Shown piece after piece: positions 30,676 to 39,307 of a DNA stretch of 64,000 nt. Where the stretch lies: contig NZ_FXUL01000002.1 of assembly GCF_900182955.1 (NCBI RefSeq), positions 186,001-250,000 on the forward strand, read 5' to 3'. Both the position numbers and the translations under genes were made by a program. The notes under the pieces were generated by a model. It was not told the origin of the DNA and ran no database searches. It saw only the letters and a program-made list of their open reading frames with translations. Origin of the DNA: Noviherbaspirillum suwonense (lineage in GTDB: Bacteria > Pseudomonadota > Gammaproteobacteria > Burkholderiales > Burkholderiaceae_D). The first letter of the stretch is position 1, and every line of letters begins with the position of its first letter.

Positions 30676-31257
30676 ATGAATAAGCCCAACCAGGACCGGC
30701 CAGGCGCCCGTCCATCGTTCTTTAATCGTGTATCGCTCGCCTTCAGCGCTTTTTTCCGGATTGTGGGCAATCCGGATTACGCGGAACGTATCGACAGGAT
30801 GCCCGAGGGCGCCGAAGCGCCGGCCCGTCCTGCCGCCCAGCCCGAGGCGAAGCCGGCGCTGCGCATCCTGAAGGAATCCTCGCCCGACGCCGCGCTGCAG
30901 CTGCTGGGCATCCTGCAGCGCGACGCGCGCCTGATCGATTTTGCGCAGGAAGACCTGTCCGGCTACAGCGACGCCGACATCGGCGCCGCCGCCCGCGTGG
31001 TGCATGAAGGCTGCCGCAAGGTGCTGCGCGAACATTTCATGATCGAACCCGTGCTGCGCGAAAGCGAGGGCAGCCCGATCGCCGTGAGTCCCGGCTTCGA
31101 CGCCGCCGCGATCCGGCTGACCGGCAACGTGGTCGGCACCGCGCCGTTCAACGGCGTGGTCGGCCACCGCGGCTGGCGCGCGACCGACGTCCACCTGCCC
31201 AAGGTCGCCGACGGCCACAACGTGCACGTGCTGGCCCCGGCGGAGGTGGAGCTGTGA
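30676..31257 (+). CDS. DUF2760 protein, first gene of the double-Hsp70 operon
   Basis: 193 residues from ATG 30676, which has AGGAAGAG 5 bases upstream. Features: a short N-terminal hydrophobic patch (FFNRVSLAFSAFFRIVGNPD), a Pro/Ala linker (~residues 45-60), then the conserved body ALQLLGILQRDARLIDFAQE, YSDADIGAAARVVHEGCRKV and TGNVVGTAPFNGVVGHRGWR. It matches DUF2760 as I recall it, a family that lies beside Hsp70-like genes in proteobacteria. Its stop overlaps the GTG start of the first Hsp70 by four bases (GTGA), implying translational coupling and a shared role. The molecular function is unknown; a co-chaperone or adaptor is conceivable but untested. Confidence 0.85.
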   Translation: MNKPNQDRPGARPSFFNRVSLAFSAFFRIVGNPDYAERIDRMPEGAEAPARPAAQPEAKPALRILKESSPDAALQLLGILQRDARLIDFAQEDLSGYSDADIGAAARVVHEGCRKVLREHFMIEPVLRESEGSPIAVSPGFDAAAIRLTGNVVGTAPFNGVVGHRGWRATDVHLPKVADGHNVHVLAPAEVEL

Positions 31258-33098
31258 CTGCGGCGCGCTACAGCATCGGCATCGACCTCGGCACCACCCA
31301 CAGCGCGCTGGCCTGGGTCGACACCAGCGCGTCCGACGGCGAGAAGACCAGCAACGGCGTGCTGCCGATGCCGCAGCTGACCGGCCCCGGCGCGGTCGAG
31401 GCGCTGCCGCTGCTGCCGTCCTTCCTCTACCTGCCTCATGCCGACGAACTGCCGCCCGGCGCGCTGGCCCTGCCCTGGACCGACAGCCTGCCGTACGCGG
31501 TCGGCGAATTCGCGCGCAGCCGCGGCGCGGGCACGCCGATCCGGCTGGTGTCCAGCGCCAAGAGCTGGCTGTCGCATCCCGGCGTGGACCGGCGCGCGGC
31601 CATCCTGCCGGTCGACGCGCCGCCCGACCTGGCGAAAGTCTCGCCGGTCGATGCATCGATCCGCTATCTCGACCACCTGAAGCAGGCGTGGAACAACGCC
31701 CACCCGGACGCGCCGTTCGACCAGCAGGATGTGACCGTCACCATCCCGGCCTCGTTCGACCCGGCCGCCCGCGAGCTGACCGCCGAGGCCGCGCGCGCGG
31801 CCGGCTACGACAGCCTGACGCTGCTGGAAGAACCGCAGGCGGCGCTCTACAGCTGGATACAGGGCAGCGGCGGCAACTGGCGCAAGGAAGTGCGGACCGG
31901 CGACATCATCCTGGTGGTGGACGTCGGCGGCGGCACCAGCGACTTTTCGCTGATCGCGGTGCTGGAGCGCGAAGGCAACCTGGAACTGCACCGGGTGGCG
32001 GTGGGCGACCATATCCTGCTCGGCGGCGACAACATGGACCTGACGCTGGCCTACGGCATGGCGCAGAAGCTGGCTGCCAACGGCACCCGGCTCGACCCGT
32101 GGCAGATGCGCTCGCTGACCCATGCCTGCCGCGCGGCCAAGGAAAGCCTGCTGTCGGACGCCGCGCTCGAATCGGTGCCGGTGGTCATCCCCAGCCGCGG
32201 CTCCAAGCTGATCGGCGGCGCGATCCGCGCAGACCTCAGCCGCGAGGACGTGGCCGCCACCATCCTCGAAGGCTTCTTTCCGCAGGTCGACGCGTCGGCC
32301 CGCCCGGCTGCGCGCACCCGCGCCGGCCTGACGCAGATCGGCCTGCCGTTCGCGCAGGACGCGGCCATCACCCGCCACCTGGCCGCCTTCCTCGGCCGCC
32401 AGCAGGGCGCGACCGCCGAGCTGGACGGATTCGTCGAGCAGCATCCCGGCGCGACCTTCCTGCACCCGACCGCCGTGCTGTTCAACGGCGGCATCTTCAA
32501 GTCGGACCTGCTGGCCTCGCGCACGCTGGAGACGGTCAACCGCTGGCTCGCGGCGGAAAACGCGCCGCCAGCGCGGCTGCTGGCCGGCGCTGACCTCGAC
32601 CTCGCCGTTGCGCGCGGCGCCGCCTATTACGGCCACGTGCGGCGCGGACGCGGCGTCCGCATCCGCGGCGGCACGGCTGCCGCCTACTATGTCGCCGTCG
32701 AATCGGCGATGCCCGCAATCCCCGGCATGGCGCCGCCGATCCAGGCGTTGTGCGTCGCGCCGTTCGGCATGGAAGAAGGCGCCGAGGCTGCGGTGCTGGA
32801 CCAGGAATTCGGCCTGGTGGTCGGCGAGCCGGTGCATTTCCGTTTCTTCGGCTCGACCGTGCGGCGCCAGGACGGCGTCGGCACGCTGCTCGACTTCTGG
32901 CAGGATGACGAACTGCAGGAGCTCGACGAGATCCAGGCGACGCTCCCGGCCGATGGCCGCCAGCCCGGCCAGGTGGTCGAGGTCCGGCTGCAGTCGCGCG
33001 TCAGCGAGACCGGCACGCTGGAGCTGGCCGCCGTGCCGCGCGACGGCAGCGCACGCTGGAATGTCGAGTTCGACGTGCGCGGCGCCGTTCCCGGTTAA
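31254..33098 (+). CDS. Hsp70-family protein A (non-canonical DnaK relative)
   Basis: 614 residues, GTG start inside the DUF2760 stop. The actin-like ATPase fold has phosphate loops IGIDLGTTHSALAWV and VVDVGGGTSDFSLIAV, GGDNMDLTLAYGM and an adenosine-motif-like VLFNGGIFKSDLLAS. It carries RLVSSAKSWLSHPGVDRRAA, a block shared almost word for word with the next gene. The C-terminal third is beta-rich (SRVSETGTLELAAVPRDG), resembling a reduced substrate-binding domain; the DnaK linker (VLLLDVTPL) and helical lid are absent. It is likely an ATP-dependent chaperone-like protein with a partner encoded 3 bases downstream. Not the housekeeping DnaK: no dnaJ or grpE is nearby. Confidence 0.9.
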   Translation: MTAARYSIGIDLGTTHSALAWVDTSASDGEKTSNGVLPMPQLTGPGAVEALPLLPSFLYLPHADELPPGALALPWTDSLPYAVGEFARSRGAGTPIRLVSSAKSWLSHPGVDRRAAILPVDAPPDLAKVSPVDASIRYLDHLKQAWNNAHPDAPFDQQDVTVTIPASFDPAARELTAEAARAAGYDSLTLLEEPQAALYSWIQGSGGNWRKEVRTGDIILVVDVGGGTSDFSLIAVLEREGNLELHRVAVGDHILLGGDNMDLTLAYGMAQKLAANGTRLDPWQMRSLTHACRAAKESLLSDAALESVPVVIPSRGSKLIGGAIRADLSREDVAATILEGFFPQVDASARPAARTRAGLTQIGLPFAQDAAITRHLAAFLGRQQGATAELDGFVEQHPGATFLHPTAVLFNGGIFKSDLLASRTLETVNRWLAAENAPPARLLAGADLDLAVARGAAYYGHVRRGRGVRIRGGTAAAYYVAVESAMPAIPGMAPPIQALCVAPFGMEEGAEAAVLDQEFGLVVGEPVHFRFFGSTVRRQDGVGTLLDFWQDDELQELDEIQATLPADGRQPGQVVEVRLQSRVSETGTLELAAVPRDGSARWNVEFDVRGAVPG

Positions 33099-33101
33099 GC
33101 A

Positions 33102-35834
33102 ATGGCCCGCTATGTGGTCGGCATCGACCTCGGCACGACCAACACCGTCGTCGCCTATGCGGCGCCGGGCGATGCGTCGGTGCGGGTGTTCGAGGTCGAG
33201 CAGCTCGTCGCGCCCGGCGAAGTGCGGGCCGAAGCCCTGCTGCCATCGCTGCGCTACCAGCCCGCGCCCGGCGAGTTCGCGCCCGGCGCACTGCGCCTGC
33301 CGTGGAGCGCCGGCGACGAGCCGGCCATCGTCGGCGCGCTGGCGCGGCGGCTCGGCGCCCAAGTGCCGGGCCGGCTGGTGTCCAGCGCCAAGAGCTGGCT
33401 GTCGCATGCGGCGGTGGACCGCAGCGCGCCCATCCTGCCCTGGGGCGCGCCGGACGACGTCGAGAAAGTCTCGCCGCTGGCGGCCAGCGCCGGCTATCTT
33501 GCCCATGTGAGGCACGCCTGGAATGCCCGCTTCCCGGCGCATCCGCTGGAAAAGCAGGACCTGGTGCTCACCATCCCGGCCTCGTTCGACGAGGGCGCGC
33601 GGGCGCTGACCGTCGAGGCGGCGCGGATGGCCGGCCTGCCGCGCCTGCACCTGGTCGAGGAACCGCAGGCGGCGCTGCATGACTGGCTGTACCGGCACCG
33701 GGCGTCGCTGGCGGCCGGGCTTGCCGGCAGCCGGCTGATCCTGGTGGCCGACGTCGGCGGCGGCACCACCGACTTCAGCCTGATCAGCGTCCGGCTCGAG
33801 AACGGCGAACCGGCGCTGGAGCGCATCGGCGTCGGCCAGCACCTGATGCTGGGCGGCGACAACATGGACCTGGTGCTGGCCCACCTGGCGGAGTCGCGGC
33901 TGCAGCCGGCGCAGGCCGGCCAGGCGCCGCAGAAACTGTCGGCGAGCCGCCTGTCCCAGCTGATGGAGCGCTGCCGCGCGGCCAAGGAACAGTTGCTGGC
34001 GGCCGATGCGCCGGAACGCGCGCCGGTGACGCTGCTGGGCGGCGGCAGCCGTCTGGTCGGCGCCAGCCGCACCGTCGAACTGGGCCGCGACGAGGTCAGG
34101 ACGATGCTGGTCGATGGCTTCCTCCCGGCCGTCGGCCTGGCGGAGAAAAGCAAGCCGCGCCGCGCCGGCCTGGTCGAGTTCGGCCTGCCGTATGCGAGCG
34201 ACCCGGCCATCACCCGCCACCTGGCCAGTTTCCTGCAGCAGCATGCGGACGACAGCGGCGCGCCGGCGATGCCGGACACGCTGCTGCTGAACGGCGGCGT
34301 GTTCCGCGCCTCGGCATTGTCGGAACGGCTGCGGCAGGTGCTCGAAGGCTGGCGCGGCGCGCCGCTGCGCCTGCTTGAAAACGACGACCCGGACGTCGCG
34401 GTCGCACGCGGCGCGGTCGCCTACGGGCTATCGCGCAGCGGCGCGGCGCCGCGCATCGCCGGCGGCGCGGCCCGGAGCTATTTCCTGGCGCTCGAAGGCG
34501 GCGACGCGGCCGACACCGGCGTCTGCATCCTGCCGCGCGGCAGCCAGCCGGGACAGGAACTGCTGCTGGAAGACCGGGCCTTCGCGCTGCGCGTCGGCCA
34601 GCCGGTGCGTTTTCACCTGGCGTCGTCGACCGGGGCCGGCAATGCCGGGCAGCTGGTCGACCTGGCAGACATCGGCGCGCTGCGGCTGCCGCCGCTGGCG
34701 GCGGTGCTGCCGGCCGGCGAGGCTGGCGGCAAGGGTGAGATCGAGGTGCGGCTGGCCAGCATGCTGACCGAGGTCGGCACGCTGCAGGTCGCCTGCGTCG
34801 CCGCGAAGAATCCGGCGCAGCGCTGGCAGCTCGAATTCCAGCTGCGCGGCGCGGAAGCCGCGGCCGACAGCGCGGAGGCCAGGCTGCCTGTGCGTTTTCC
34901 GCAGGCGGTGGAAGCGATCGAACGCGTGTTTTTGCTGCGCGGCCAGAAGCTGGCGCCGAAGGACGTCCGGCAGCTGCGGCTGCAGCTGGAAAAGCTGCTG
35001 GGCAGCCGCGAGCGCTGGGACCTGCCGCTGCTGCGCAAGCTGTTCGACACGCTGTGGAAAGCCGCGCGCGGCCGCCGCCGTTCGGCCGACCATGAACGGC
35101 TGTGGCTGAACCTGGCCGGCTACTGCCTGCGGCCCGGCACCGGCTATCCGCTCGACGACTGGCGCATCGAACAGCTATGGACGATATTCCCGGACGGCGT
35201 GCAGCACCGCGGCGACAGCCAGGCCTGCGCGGAATGGTGGACGCTGTGGCGGCGCGCCGCCGGCGGCCTGCCGGCGGAAGCCCAGCTGCGGCTGCTCGAG
35301 GACTTCGCCTTCAATGTCCAGGCGGATGAAAAGGAACGCCGCCAGCGGCCCCAGAACCTGCCGCCGGGCGGGCTGGACGACATGCTGCGGCTGGCAGCGT
35401 CGCTTGAACGGATCCCGGGCAGCTACAAGGTGGAGATCGGCGACTGGATGCTGGAGCAGTTGCAGGCGTTACCGGACCAGCGGCTGATGCTGTGGGCGCT
35501 GGGCCGGGTCGGTGCGCGGATGCCGCTGCAGGGCAGCGCGCATGAAGTCGCGCCGGCCGAGGCCGCGGAGCGCTGGGTTGCCTGGCTGCTGACGCTGGAC
35601 TGGCGGCGCATCGAACCGGCCGCCTTCGCCGCCGCGAATATCGCCCGCATGACCGGCGACCGCAGCCGCGACCTCGACCCGGCGTTGCGGCAGCAGGTGG
35701 CGGCCCGACTGCGCGAAGCCCGCGCCGCGCCCGCATGGAGCGCGATGGTGCTGGAACTGGTGCAGCTCGACGAGGCCGACGAGCAGCGGGTGCTCGGAGA
35801 TTCCCTGCCGCCCGGCCTCAAGCTGCTGCCATAG
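33102..35834 (+). CDS. Hsp70-family protein B with long C-terminal helical extension
   Basis: 910 residues, ATG 3 bases after the stop of Hsp70 A. The ATPase domain has VGIDLGTTNTVVAYA, VADVGGGTTDFSLISV and GGDNMDLVLAHLAE; the block RLVSSAKSWLSHAAVDRSAP repeats that of Hsp70 A. A beta-rich region (MLTEVGTLQVACVAAKN) is followed by ~300 extra residues, helical and Trp/Arg-rich (QKLAPKDVRQLRLQLEKLLG; RERWDLPLLRKLFDTLWKAA; RRSADHERLWLNLAGYCLRP). This extension is absent from canonical Hsp70 and may be the client- or partner-binding part. The two Hsp70 proteins look like ancient duplicates that now act together. The biological role is undescribed to my knowledge. Confidence 0.9.
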   Translation: MARYVVGIDLGTTNTVVAYAAPGDASVRVFEVEQLVAPGEVRAEALLPSLRYQPAPGEFAPGALRLPWSAGDEPAIVGALARRLGAQVPGRLVSSAKSWLSHAAVDRSAPILPWGAPDDVEKVSPLAASAGYLAHVRHAWNARFPAHPLEKQDLVLTIPASFDEGARALTVEAARMAGLPRLHLVEEPQAALHDWLYRHRASLAAGLAGSRLILVADVGGGTTDFSLISVRLENGEPALERIGVGQHLMLGGDNMDLVLAHLAESRLQPAQAGQAPQKLSASRLSQLMERCRAAKEQLLAADAPERAPVTLLGGGSRLVGASRTVELGRDEVRTMLVDGFLPAVGLAEKSKPRRAGLVEFGLPYASDPAITRHLASFLQQHADDSGAPAMPDTLLLNGGVFRASALSERLRQVLEGWRGAPLRLLENDDPDVAVARGAVAYGLSRSGAAPRIAGGAARSYFLALEGGDAADTGVCILPRGSQPGQELLLEDRAFALRVGQPVRFHLASSTGAGNAGQLVDLADIGALRLPPLAAVLPAGEAGGKGEIEVRLASMLTEVGTLQVACVAAKNPAQRWQLEFQLRGAEAAADSAEARLPVRFPQAVEAIERVFLLRGQKLAPKDVRQLRLQLEKLLGSRERWDLPLLRKLFDTLWKAARGRRRSADHERLWLNLAGYCLRPGTGYPLDDWRIEQLWTIFPDGVQHRGDSQACAEWWTLWRRAAGGLPAEAQLRLLEDFAFNVQADEKERRQRPQNLPPGGLDDMLRLAASLERIPGSYKVEIGDWMLEQLQALPDQRLMLWALGRVGARMPLQGSAHEVAPAEAAERWVAWLLTLDWRRIEPAAFAAANIARMTGDRSRDLDPALRQQVAARLREARAAPAWSAMVLELVQLDEADEQRVLGDSLPPGLKLLP

Positions 35835-36496: not shown

Positions 36497-37048
36497 ATGG
36501 AGAACGATGCAGGCGCCGAAGCCTGGTACACCCTGTCGGGCGATGTGAACGATTCGATGGTGCGTCGGGTGTTCGACGCCAGCGCGCAGATGGCGCAGGA
36601 AGGCGTGCAGGTGGCGCACCTGCTGCTGCACTCGCACGGCGGCTATATCAGCGACGGCCTGTGCCTGTACAACGTGCTGTCGGCGTCGCCCGTGCGCTTC
36701 GTGATGTACAACGCCGGCGTGGTCGCGTCGATCGCGGTCACGCTCTTCCTCGCGGGCCAGCAGCGCTACGCATCGGAAACGGCGCGCTTCATGATCCACA
36801 AGTCGCATGCGTCGCCCAACGCCGGCATCGGTGCCGATGAACTCGCGGTCGTGGTCGAGGGACTGCGGGCCGACGACCATCGCACCGAGTCCGTGCTGCG
36901 CAAGTTCCTGCGGCTTACGCCTGAACAGCTGCTGGTGCATGCGCGCACGGACCTGCACCTGACGGCCCGCGACGCGCTGGCCGCGGGCCTGATCGACGAG
37001 ATCCGCGACTTCAGCCCACGGCCCGGCGCACGCCTGATCAACATCTGA
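36497..37048 (+). CDS. ClpP-like serine protease, orphan
   Basis: 183 residues of the ClpP/crotonase fold. The catalytic Ser is in NAGVVASIAVTLFLAG and the His in ARFMIHKSHA; ClpP has the equivalent Ser and His at these points, and a late Asp is plausible near the DEL/RADD segment. LLLHSHGGYISDGLCLYNVL matches the ClpP strand that contacts substrate. It is shorter than ClpP (about 195-205 residues), diverged in sequence and not adjacent to clpX or tig, so it is not the housekeeping subunit. The start has AAAGGAGG 9 bases upstream. Possible roles are specialised degradation or a membrane-protein-linked protease; neither is shown. Confidence 0.8.
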   Translation: MENDAGAEAWYTLSGDVNDSMVRRVFDASAQMAQEGVQVAHLLLHSHGGYISDGLCLYNVLSASPVRFVMYNAGVVASIAVTLFLAGQQRYASETARFMIHKSHASPNAGIGADELAVVVEGLRADDHRTESVLRKFLRLTPEQLLVHARTDLHLTARDALAAGLIDEIRDFSPRPGARLINI

Positions 37049-37101
37049 CAGCCTTCCCGCCTCGGGCGGCTGCCGGCTGAGCGCGCGCCGCGCCCGCCGG
37101 T

Positions 37102-37377
37102 TTATTTGCCGGCGGTATCGACCTCGGCTTGCGCGCCGTCGGCCCCGCCGGCTTGCGCCGCACGGCCCCGGTTGGCGCTGTTCTTCCGGCTCATGCTGCC
37201 GGCGCGCCGCGCTTCTTCCGAAGTGAACTCATGCGCATTGCCGCTCAGGTGTGCGGCACGACCGCCTGCGCTGGCAATCGCGCGCTGCTGGTTCGGGTCC
37301 ATGGACGCAAAGCCGCGACGGCTGGTGCGCTCGCCCTGTTTGCCCTGTTCCTTAACGTCCTGCTTGGTGGAGGCCAT
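37102..37377 (-). CDS. KGG-repeat stress protein
   Basis: 91 residues, very hydrophilic. The pattern GFASMDPNQQRAIASAGGRA followed by TSEEARRAGSMSRKN matches the short KGG/GsiB-type repeats (GFASMDPEKQREIASKGG) of stress-induced desiccation-type proteins. The C-terminus is Ala/Gly-rich. The ATG at 37377 has AAAGGAAA 7-8 bases upstream; upstream in-frame codons are not family-like. Probably a disordered protein produced in stationary phase or stress. It is divergent from the secreted Gly/Ser protein. Confidence 0.8.
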   Translation of the reverse strand: MASTKQDVKEQGKQGERTSRRGFASMDPNQQRAIASAGGRAAHLSGNAHEFTSEEARRAGSMSRKNSANRGRAAQAGGADGAQAEVDTAGK

Positions 37378-37747
37378 GATCGATTTCCTTTCAATGCGGT
37401 TAAGCGGATGCCGGATGCCGCAGTTAGCAAAAGGCAATGCGCCGGCATAAGCTCATCCTAGCCAACAGCGCTGCAACTCTCTATAGGACGATAGCCCGGC
37501 CGTGTGTCAGAAATGCGCACCATGACCGTTATTCCGGTGCTCTGAAGACATGCCCCGGGCTTACGCGTCCTTCCGGACGAGCAGTGCCAGCTTGATACGG
37601 TGCAAGGCTTTAAGCAGAACTGTTGCGCAAAGCGCCATCCCGCCCCGTTTGTTTGAACTCCGTGCCGCATACCTTTCTAACAGGCATGCGCTGCGCCGGC
37701 ATGCATCATGCGCCGGCCACTTTTCAAACGGTTTTCAGGAGATTCAT
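37378..37747. other. Divergent intergenic region
   Basis: 370 bases between the KGG protein and the secreted Gly/Ser-rich protein. It must hold both promoters. I see no additional gene, repeat or recognisable operator in it. Confidence 0.5.
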
Positions 37748-38450: not shown

Positions 38451-38873
38451 CTAGGCCGGCGTCTCCCGCGCCGGCGTGCTCACGCCGGCCGCAAGCGCGC
38501 CGTCCATGGTCGCAATGTGCAGCATGAACCAGCCCGGCAGCATCGCGACAAGGTCGCGCCCGGCGGCGAGGTCGCCGGCCATCACCTGCCGCGCGACATG
38601 ATGCAGCCCGCCCAGCATCCGCGCATGCTGTTCCCGGTGGCCATGCAGGCCCGAAAAGGCGGTCCGCTCCATCAGCGCCTCCTCCTCGCGGAAGTCGCGT
38701 TCGACGCGCGCGACGAAGCCGGTGTAACGGTCCGCGAACTGTGCATCCTGCTCATCTTCCAGCGCCGCCAGTTCGCTGAGCAGTTCGCGGTGGCAGGCGT
38801 CCACCGCGTCCACCCCCACGCTGAGCTGCGGCGACCAGTAGCGCCCTGCCCGCGCGGCGTCCTCATCGCTCAT
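38451..38873 (-). CDS. Bacteriohemerythrin
   Basis: 140-residue four-helix oxygen-binding protein with a di-iron site. Ligand candidates: His in SVGVDAVDACHRELL, Glu in RDFREEEALM, His residues in HGHREQHARMLGGLHH and the final His/Asp in HIATMDGAL. It likely stores or senses O2 or detoxifies NO at low oxygen. Its ATG overlaps the stop of the universal stress protein gene by four bases (ATGA), so it is coupled to it and should share its FNR-type control. Single domain with no fused signalling part. Confidence 0.87.
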   Translation of the reverse strand: MSDEDAARAGRYWSPQLSVGVDAVDACHRELLSELAALEDEQDAQFADRYTGFVARVERDFREEEALMERTAFSGLHGHREQHARMLGGLHHVARQVMAGDLAAGRDLVAMLPGWFMLHIATMDGALAAGVSTPARETPA

Positions 38874-39307
38874 CGGAACACCATCACCGGCAGCATCGTG
38901 TGCGCCAGCACCTTCTGGGTCTCGCTGCCGACAAACAGCCGGTTGATGCCCTTGCGGCCGTGGGACGCCATGAAGATCGCGTCGCAGCCGAGATCCTTGG
39001 CGGTATTGGTGATTTCCTCGTAGGGGCTGAAAGACAGCGCGACCCGGGCGTCGCACTGGACGCCGGCGGCGCTGGCGAGTTCGGCAACCTCGGTCACGAA
39101 GCGCCGCGCATTGTCCTGCATTTCCTTCTCATAGCGGCTCTGGTCGGGCAGATAGGTCGACTCCGCCAGCGCCGAGTATGGATAGGGTTCGGCCACAGAC
39201 AGTGCGGTGATCCGTGCGCCCACGGCAGCGGCAAACTCGACGGCGGCCTTGGCTGCCTTGGCAGACAGCGGCGAGCCGTCGGTTGGAACCAGCAGATGCT
39301 TGAACAT
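38870..39307 (-). CDS. Universal stress protein (UspA family)
   Basis: 145 residues, one Usp domain. MFKHLLVPTDGSPLSAKAAK begins the fold, and the ATP-binding motif G-x2-G-x9-G-S/T is present (GRKGINRLFVGSETQKVL). Such ATP-binding Usp proteins support survival under energy or oxygen limitation. It is the first gene of a two-gene operon with bacteriohemerythrin. An FNR-like box (39390-39403) lies about 83-96 bases upstream of the start, giving a sequence-based reason to expect induction at low oxygen. Confidence 0.93.
   Translation of the reverse strand: MFKHLLVPTDGSPLSAKAAKAAVEFAAAVGARITALSVAEPYPYSALAESTYLPDQSRYEKEMQDNARRFVTEVAELASAAGVQCDARVALSFSPYEEITNTAKDLGCDAIFMASHGRKGINRLFVGSETQKVLAHTMLPVMVFR

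Follow-up and report, generated by a model that had tools for sequence, protein, structure and literature searches.

A 64,000-nucleotide stretch of the Noviherbaspirillum suwonense genome (contig NZ_FXUL01000002.1, positions 186,001 to 250,000), hereafter the window, carries three closely packed genes on its forward strand: one for a DUF2760 protein (D) and two for diverged Hsp70 proteins (A and B). The linkage of D, A and DUF3731, the C-terminal domain of B, goes far beyond chance across genomes, and judged by their sequences A and B form a distinct family. The set is genuine and, to judge from the literature searched, undescribed as a system; neither DUF2760 nor DUF3731 is named in any paper of that literature, supplements being outside the search. 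We propose, with a probability of about one half, that the three proteins make up an Hsp70 machine tethered to the membrane and perhaps independent of J-proteins, in which D and B form the core and A usually joins as a sister subunit.

D (193 amino acids, 30676-31257) matches PF10816 over residues 70-192 (6.5e-54). A (614 amino acids with a GTG start, 31254-33098) matches PF00012 (1.1e-16), retains the ATPase residues tested and ends after its putative beta domain. B (910 amino acids, 33102-35834) matches PF00012 (1.3e-16) and PF12531 (DUF3731, 1.1e-95). Both PF00012 matches exceed the family's cut-off. The GTG of A at 31254 lies within the end of D at 31257, an overlap of 4 bases, and the end of A at 33098 is separated from the start of B at 33102 by 3 bases. 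This spacing and the blocks common to the two Hsp70s, both pointed out in a first-pass annotation of the window, were re-read from the sequence. The closest named relative of B among the matches listed is in Noviherbaspirillum soli (80% identity), in a scan that may omit genomes very near to the source.

Co-inheritance and order of the three genes

In a phylum sample of 299 genomes, with presence scored at the thresholds used, 22 genomes contain D, these same genomes contain A, and 21 of them also contain DUF3731; the other 277 have none of the three. The exception for DUF3731 is G026, where the A gene stops at base 85 of the contig and a search found no B. The genera that carry D, A and DUF3731 are the same 9 among 154, with a hypergeometric probability of 9e-15 that ignores the kinship of the genera. 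Twenty genomes have D and DUF3731 on one contig, which leaves out G026 and G053 (B on a separate contig), and all 20 loci read in the order D-A-B on one strand. This co-occurrence check bears out the coupled three-gene set that the first-pass annotation had suggested. One of the 20, a Burkholderiales locus (L054, 9287-11833), has a porin gene and a sodium/calcium exchanger gene between A and B.

Named genomes were also scanned with the B profile, and the best 80 of at least 256 confirmed loci, among at least 597 candidate stretches, were taken. They come from at least six phyla: Pseudomonadota, Myxococcota, Thermodesulfobacteriota, Planctomycetota, Verrucomicrobiota/Lentisphaerota and Acidobacteriota. 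Fifty-eight loci have D-A-B, 4 have D-B, 4 have A-B and 14 have B alone; counted among the 58 is a Cupriavidus draft (L121) whose D, A and B are each broken into several frames, perhaps by sequencing errors. Whole-genome searches for 21 of the 22 incomplete loci recovered one D in 21 of 21, A in 18 and DUF3731 in 20, so the shared presence of D, A and B extends beyond their linkage. In these searches A was only partial in G302, G304 and G309. B is cut by a contig end in G314. For L130, the remaining one of the 22 incomplete loci, no D was found. Over the 80 B-picked genomes, D is present in 79 and A in 77; the genes do not lie apart in most genomes, whereas a scattered arrangement had been named beforehand as the outcome that would refute their coupling.

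The set also occurs in a plasmid collection, where the B query and D each hit an identical group of 11 records. The match in Candidatus Thiodictyon syntrophicum is taken as A, since it is the sole match beside D and spans residues 2-583 at 42%. By our reading of coverage and place, ten of the plasmid records appear to hold B and the Thiodictyon record D and A only.

The Hsp70 pair and the DUF2760 protein

A and B share 43% identity over 614 columns. Both contain the block RLVSSAKSWLSH without any difference, A at residues 97-108 (31542-31577) and B at residues 91-102 (33372-33407), and it encloses the equivalent of DnaK Lys70 (K103 in A, K97 in B). Ordinary Hsp70s of full length number three in the window's genome, which also has two shorter Hsp70-like frames; with the two DnaK proteins and one HscA-like protein of this genome, A and B share only about 26-32% identity, over parts of the ATPase domain. 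When an A profile was run against 21 further genomes, full A and B scored at least 429 bits and the next Hsp70s about 73 bits. In a quick tree built from 64 A, 75 B and 3 control proteins, A forms one group at 100% support. Because the long control branch cuts B and 42 of the 139 inner branches have weak support, the tree leaves the order of events uncertain. Judged by eye, A and B contain matching organism groups.

The equivalents of DnaK D8, K70, E171, T199 and D201, assigned against the DnaK of the window's genome, show no variation among 20 A and 20 B proteins. The positions that we take to be J-domain contacts (R167, N170 and T173) behave differently: N170 is replaced by Glu in all 40 proteins and T173 by Gln in 36 of the 40. 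In the 12 rows of A and B shown from an alignment with DnaK, no VLLLDV linker motif is visible. A helical lid after the beta domain is absent, as had been stated in the first-pass annotation: A ends there, and B runs on into DUF3731. For A, the beta substrate domain is putative, based on a gappy alignment with DnaK and on the 43% identity to B, which extends through B residue 583. In a structural model of B (predicted local distance difference test, pLDDT, 80.5), an all-helical region covers residues ~599-898. The helical extension of about 300 residues described earlier is therefore present in the model, but it is already a Pfam family, as residues 661-908 (35082-35825) match DUF3731, a domain predicted to be helical that takes the place of the Hsp70 lid. 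Foldseek matches the B model to DnaK with a best expectation value (E) of 3.7e-22, and aligns it to lid-truncated BiP and DnaK across the ATPase and beta substrate domains over ~600 columns.

The conserved domain of D (30883-31251), defined by Pfam, an alignment of 20 proteins and a model, consists of helices followed by six strands. The pLDDT of the model is 70.6 overall and ~80-90 for residues 81-170. The domain is preceded by a linker, often rich in Pro/Ala or made of VEKPVEK repeats, and by an N-terminal segment. In the window's protein, this is the amphipathic segment PSFFNRVSLAFSAFFRIVG (residues 13-31, 30712-30768), a putative membrane anchor with the best mean Kyte-Doolittle (KD) hydropathy, 0.92, and the largest hydrophobic moment of the stretch before the domain, 0.53; residues 15-29 are modelled as a helix (pLDDT ~60-70). 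Among 98 D proteins that remained after removal of partial and duplicate rows, 41 N-termini fit a transmembrane rule, 46 fit an amphipathic pattern that was written after the data had been seen, and 11 fit neither; by eye, most of the 11 hold a variant of the same segment. One strong transmembrane helix, or two, is found in Vibrio, Photobacterium, Methylococcales, Chromatiaceae and Desulfobacteraceae. The short amphipathic form is found in Burkholderiales (of the type SFFxRLSLAFGxFFxxLG), Myxococcota, Acidobacteriota and many Planctomycetota. For the transmembrane class, a median of 2 in 100 shuffles of the same residues reach the score. This class has a mean of 3.0 Lys/Arg in the 15 residues after the segment compared with 1.0 before it, and the domain is therefore predicted to be cytoplasmic. 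In 30 control GrpE N-termini, the mean KD never exceeds 0.86. DUF2760 is thus a probable membrane anchor, mainly because one and the same domain is preceded by hydrophobic N-termini that differ between lineages. The adaptor role first assigned to DUF2760 is changed by this into a more specific one.

The window's genome has two GrpE matches and five J-domain matches, none of them beside the set, in agreement with the first-pass annotation. A GrpE profile gave 0 matches in 100 loci and 32 in control stretches. A J-domain model built from one seed gave a near-empty result in the loci, which is a weak test; the J-domain search of 21 genomes described below is the better one. A Competibacteraceae draft encodes a DNAJ_related protein (PF12339 and J-domain) upstream of DUF2760 (L095, 2835-3455). 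PF12339 was rejected as a dedicated J-protein family: 57 of 299 genomes have it, but among the 22 set carriers only 14 do, and none of the 7 carriers from the window's order. An additional, very diverged GrpE match (~53-72 bits) was seen beside the ordinary one in G002, G018, G022, G026, G030, G037, G049, G053 and G057.

A proposed membrane-tethered machine and its rivals

In the proposed mechanism, D, A and B would form a self-contained machine on the cytoplasmic side of the inner membrane. The N-terminal helix of D would lie in or on the membrane, and the conserved cytoplasmic domain would recruit and regulate B, and usually its sister A as well. Both Hsp70s would bind and hydrolyse ATP, and the lidless beta domain would grip polypeptides. 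DUF3731 may replace the lid of B, either by covering the cleft or by binding D, A or the client. Because the linker motif and two J contacts are changed and no dedicated J-protein was found, D, or A acting on B, probably stands in for both J-protein and exchange factor. We infer the membrane location, the physical complex and an ATP cycle that runs without a J-protein; that the clients are membrane or nascent membrane proteins is a guess.

Well-studied Hsp70s depend on J-proteins, and the Hsp70s of E. coli, the usual model, are described as the DnaK, HscA and HscC systems. Like canonical DnaK and HscA, A and B have an ATPase domain with all the tested catalytic residues; a beta substrate domain is shared by the B model and is putative in A. 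They differ in lacking the lid and the VLLLDV motif and in the changes at N170 and T173, and the set differs in its tie to DUF2760 and, in the window's genome, in having no J-protein or GrpE beside it. A wider claim, which is tentative and on balance doubtful, is that DUF2760 may define a class of membrane-anchored Hsp70 co-chaperones that replaces J-protein and exchange factor and drives a J-independent B, usually with A, on membrane clients in at least six phyla. A widespread set with intact ATPase residues, changed J contacts and a membrane-like partner would be a natural system in which to address J-independence, and would also serve to ask why an Hsp70 is held at the membrane.

Precedents exist for parts of this arrangement. 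Yeast Ssz1 is an atypical Hsp70 held in the ribosome-associated complex (RAC), and in the pairs mtHsp70-Tim44 and BiP-Sec63 an Hsp70 is held at the membrane by its partner. If the proposed tethering is right, the set would resemble these systems in keeping an Hsp70 in a complex or at the membrane, and RAC/Ssz1 entries are present among the Foldseek matches of the B model. The set differs from them in DUF2760, in which the HPD motif that marks J-domains was found in 0 of 98 domains, and whose search for sequence kin among solved structures returned one meaningless match (E 0.78).

A number of observations weigh against a membrane-tethered, J-independent machine. The amphipathic N-termini of D are not strongly hydrophobic (a median of 9 in 100 shuffles reach the score), and the start codons of D are not fixed, so some of the upstream letters are perhaps untranslated. 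The third J-contact residue, R167, is kept in 9 of 40 proteins (7 of the 20 B and 2 of the 20 A proteins have Arg). J-domain matches are present in all 21 set-bearing genomes searched, which are those of the 20 read loci and of L095; the closest ones are found in G142, at ~11 kb from B, and in L095, next to D. With R167 partly kept and J-proteins in all 21 genomes, the set may use J-proteins. The rates over the 80 loci are conditional, because these loci were picked through B as the best of the list. A was not found in 3 of the 80 genomes and D was not found in 1, all of them drafts, so these absences are provisional. Of the genomes in which no A was found, two are Desulfobacula drafts and the third is a Bryobacterales draft; D and B are adjacent in them. 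A has possibly been missed in these three, since in L144, the fourth D-B locus, A lies on a different contig.

The first-pass annotation favoured a pair analogous to the eukaryotic Hsp70-Hsp110 system. In its obligate form, a soluble A-B heterodimer with B as the exchange factor of A and D as a cytosolic adaptor, we consider this unlikely. The likeness is that two diverged proteins of the Hsp70 fold, of which one has the longer, helical C-terminus, belong to one set (D-A-B in 58 of 80 loci, A and B both found in 77 of 80 genomes) and both lack the canonical linker motif. The three D-B drafts argue, weakly, against an obligate heterodimer. In a fold search with the B model, DnaK and BiP headed the Foldseek matches and the Hsp110 protein Sse1 ranked 33rd, so B is not closer in fold to Hsp110 than to DnaK; the tested ATPase residues are kept in both A and B. 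The set also contains a third protein with a membrane-like N-terminus, and most D N-termini look membrane-bound.

A different function for the same proteins is conceivable and, in our view, improbable: A and B may be ATP-driven scaffold or regulatory proteins, or HscA-style assembly factors for one client, rather than folding chaperones. This would suit the missing lid and linker motif and the altered J contacts, and the best NCBIfam matches of A and B are to HscA (1.6e-23 and 3.2e-22, far under the curated cut-offs), with weak matches to MreB as well. The extended alignment of the B model with DnaK and BiP, which includes the beta substrate domain, speaks against such a role. A dedicated, distant GrpE-like exchange factor is a further possible role for D. 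GrpE has helices followed by C-terminal strands, a plan that the helices and six C-terminal strands of D recall, and three of the four best Foldseek matches to the D model are GrpE chains. These matches are weak (E 0.3-0.6, probability at most 0.15), and a profile comparison with 30 GrpE sequences by hhalign gave a probability of 0.17% and E 0.35, which leaves the kinship unsupported; we consider this role of D improbable.

Neighbouring genes, expression and Vibrio cholerae

Across the 20 loci, from 9 genera, only two protein pairs are common to different genera, at varying distances from the set; the genes were called with a home-made caller that missed some. Downstream of the set in the window (36497-37437 and 38870-39307) are a ClpP-like protease, a KGG stress-repeat protein and a universal stress protein, none of which is among the families common to different genera in the 20 loci. 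No general heat-shock control of the set is shown. The best sigma-32-like score upstream of D averages 9.6, compared with 9.3 for shuffled sequence, and reaches 12 or more in 3 of 57 loci (L093, L096 and L107); for grpE promoters as controls, the values are 10.4 and 9.1, and 8 of 30 reach 12 or more.

A role in defence was rejected, as the only PADLOC match is a weak one on the ATPase fold. PHROGs returned only two families of unknown function, chiefly over the ATPase part. Phage carriage was likewise rejected; the matches span at most about one third of B and are DnaK or HscA where annotated.

In Vibrio, a gene for a CHASE-GGDEF diguanylate cyclase is divergent from DUF2760 (L059, 4073-5623; L060, 4147-5676). 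VC1375 of V. cholerae is similarly divergent from VC1376, which we take to be a GGDEF gene. In the published tables, VC1373-VC1375 are three genes listed as one unit, two of them annotated as DnaK-related, like the present set. VC1373-VC1375 are thus probably this set; the assignment of VC1375 as DUF2760 comes from these tables and gene order, not from V. cholerae sequence. HapR, the quorum-sensing regulator, is reported to activate the VC1375 promoter in vivo and in vitro (PMC10328515). The HapR site printed for V. cholerae could not be recognised near D in 13 loci of other species, from Vibrio and Photobacterium, where 15 of its 22 letters match at best. In PMC9608740, 'VC1374' is a strain name. 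'DnaK-related protein' entries, which may be A or B, appear in a Thiodictyon differential-expression table (PMC6413534) and in a list of carbonylated proteins of Photobacterium angustum (PMC3706606). Studies of V. cholerae place VC1373-1375 in a screen of in-biofilm repression (PMC9201469), VC1373 in a riboflavin/iron transcriptome table (PMC5816637) and VC1374 in a table of differing transcripts in a polymyxin B study (PMC5636140).

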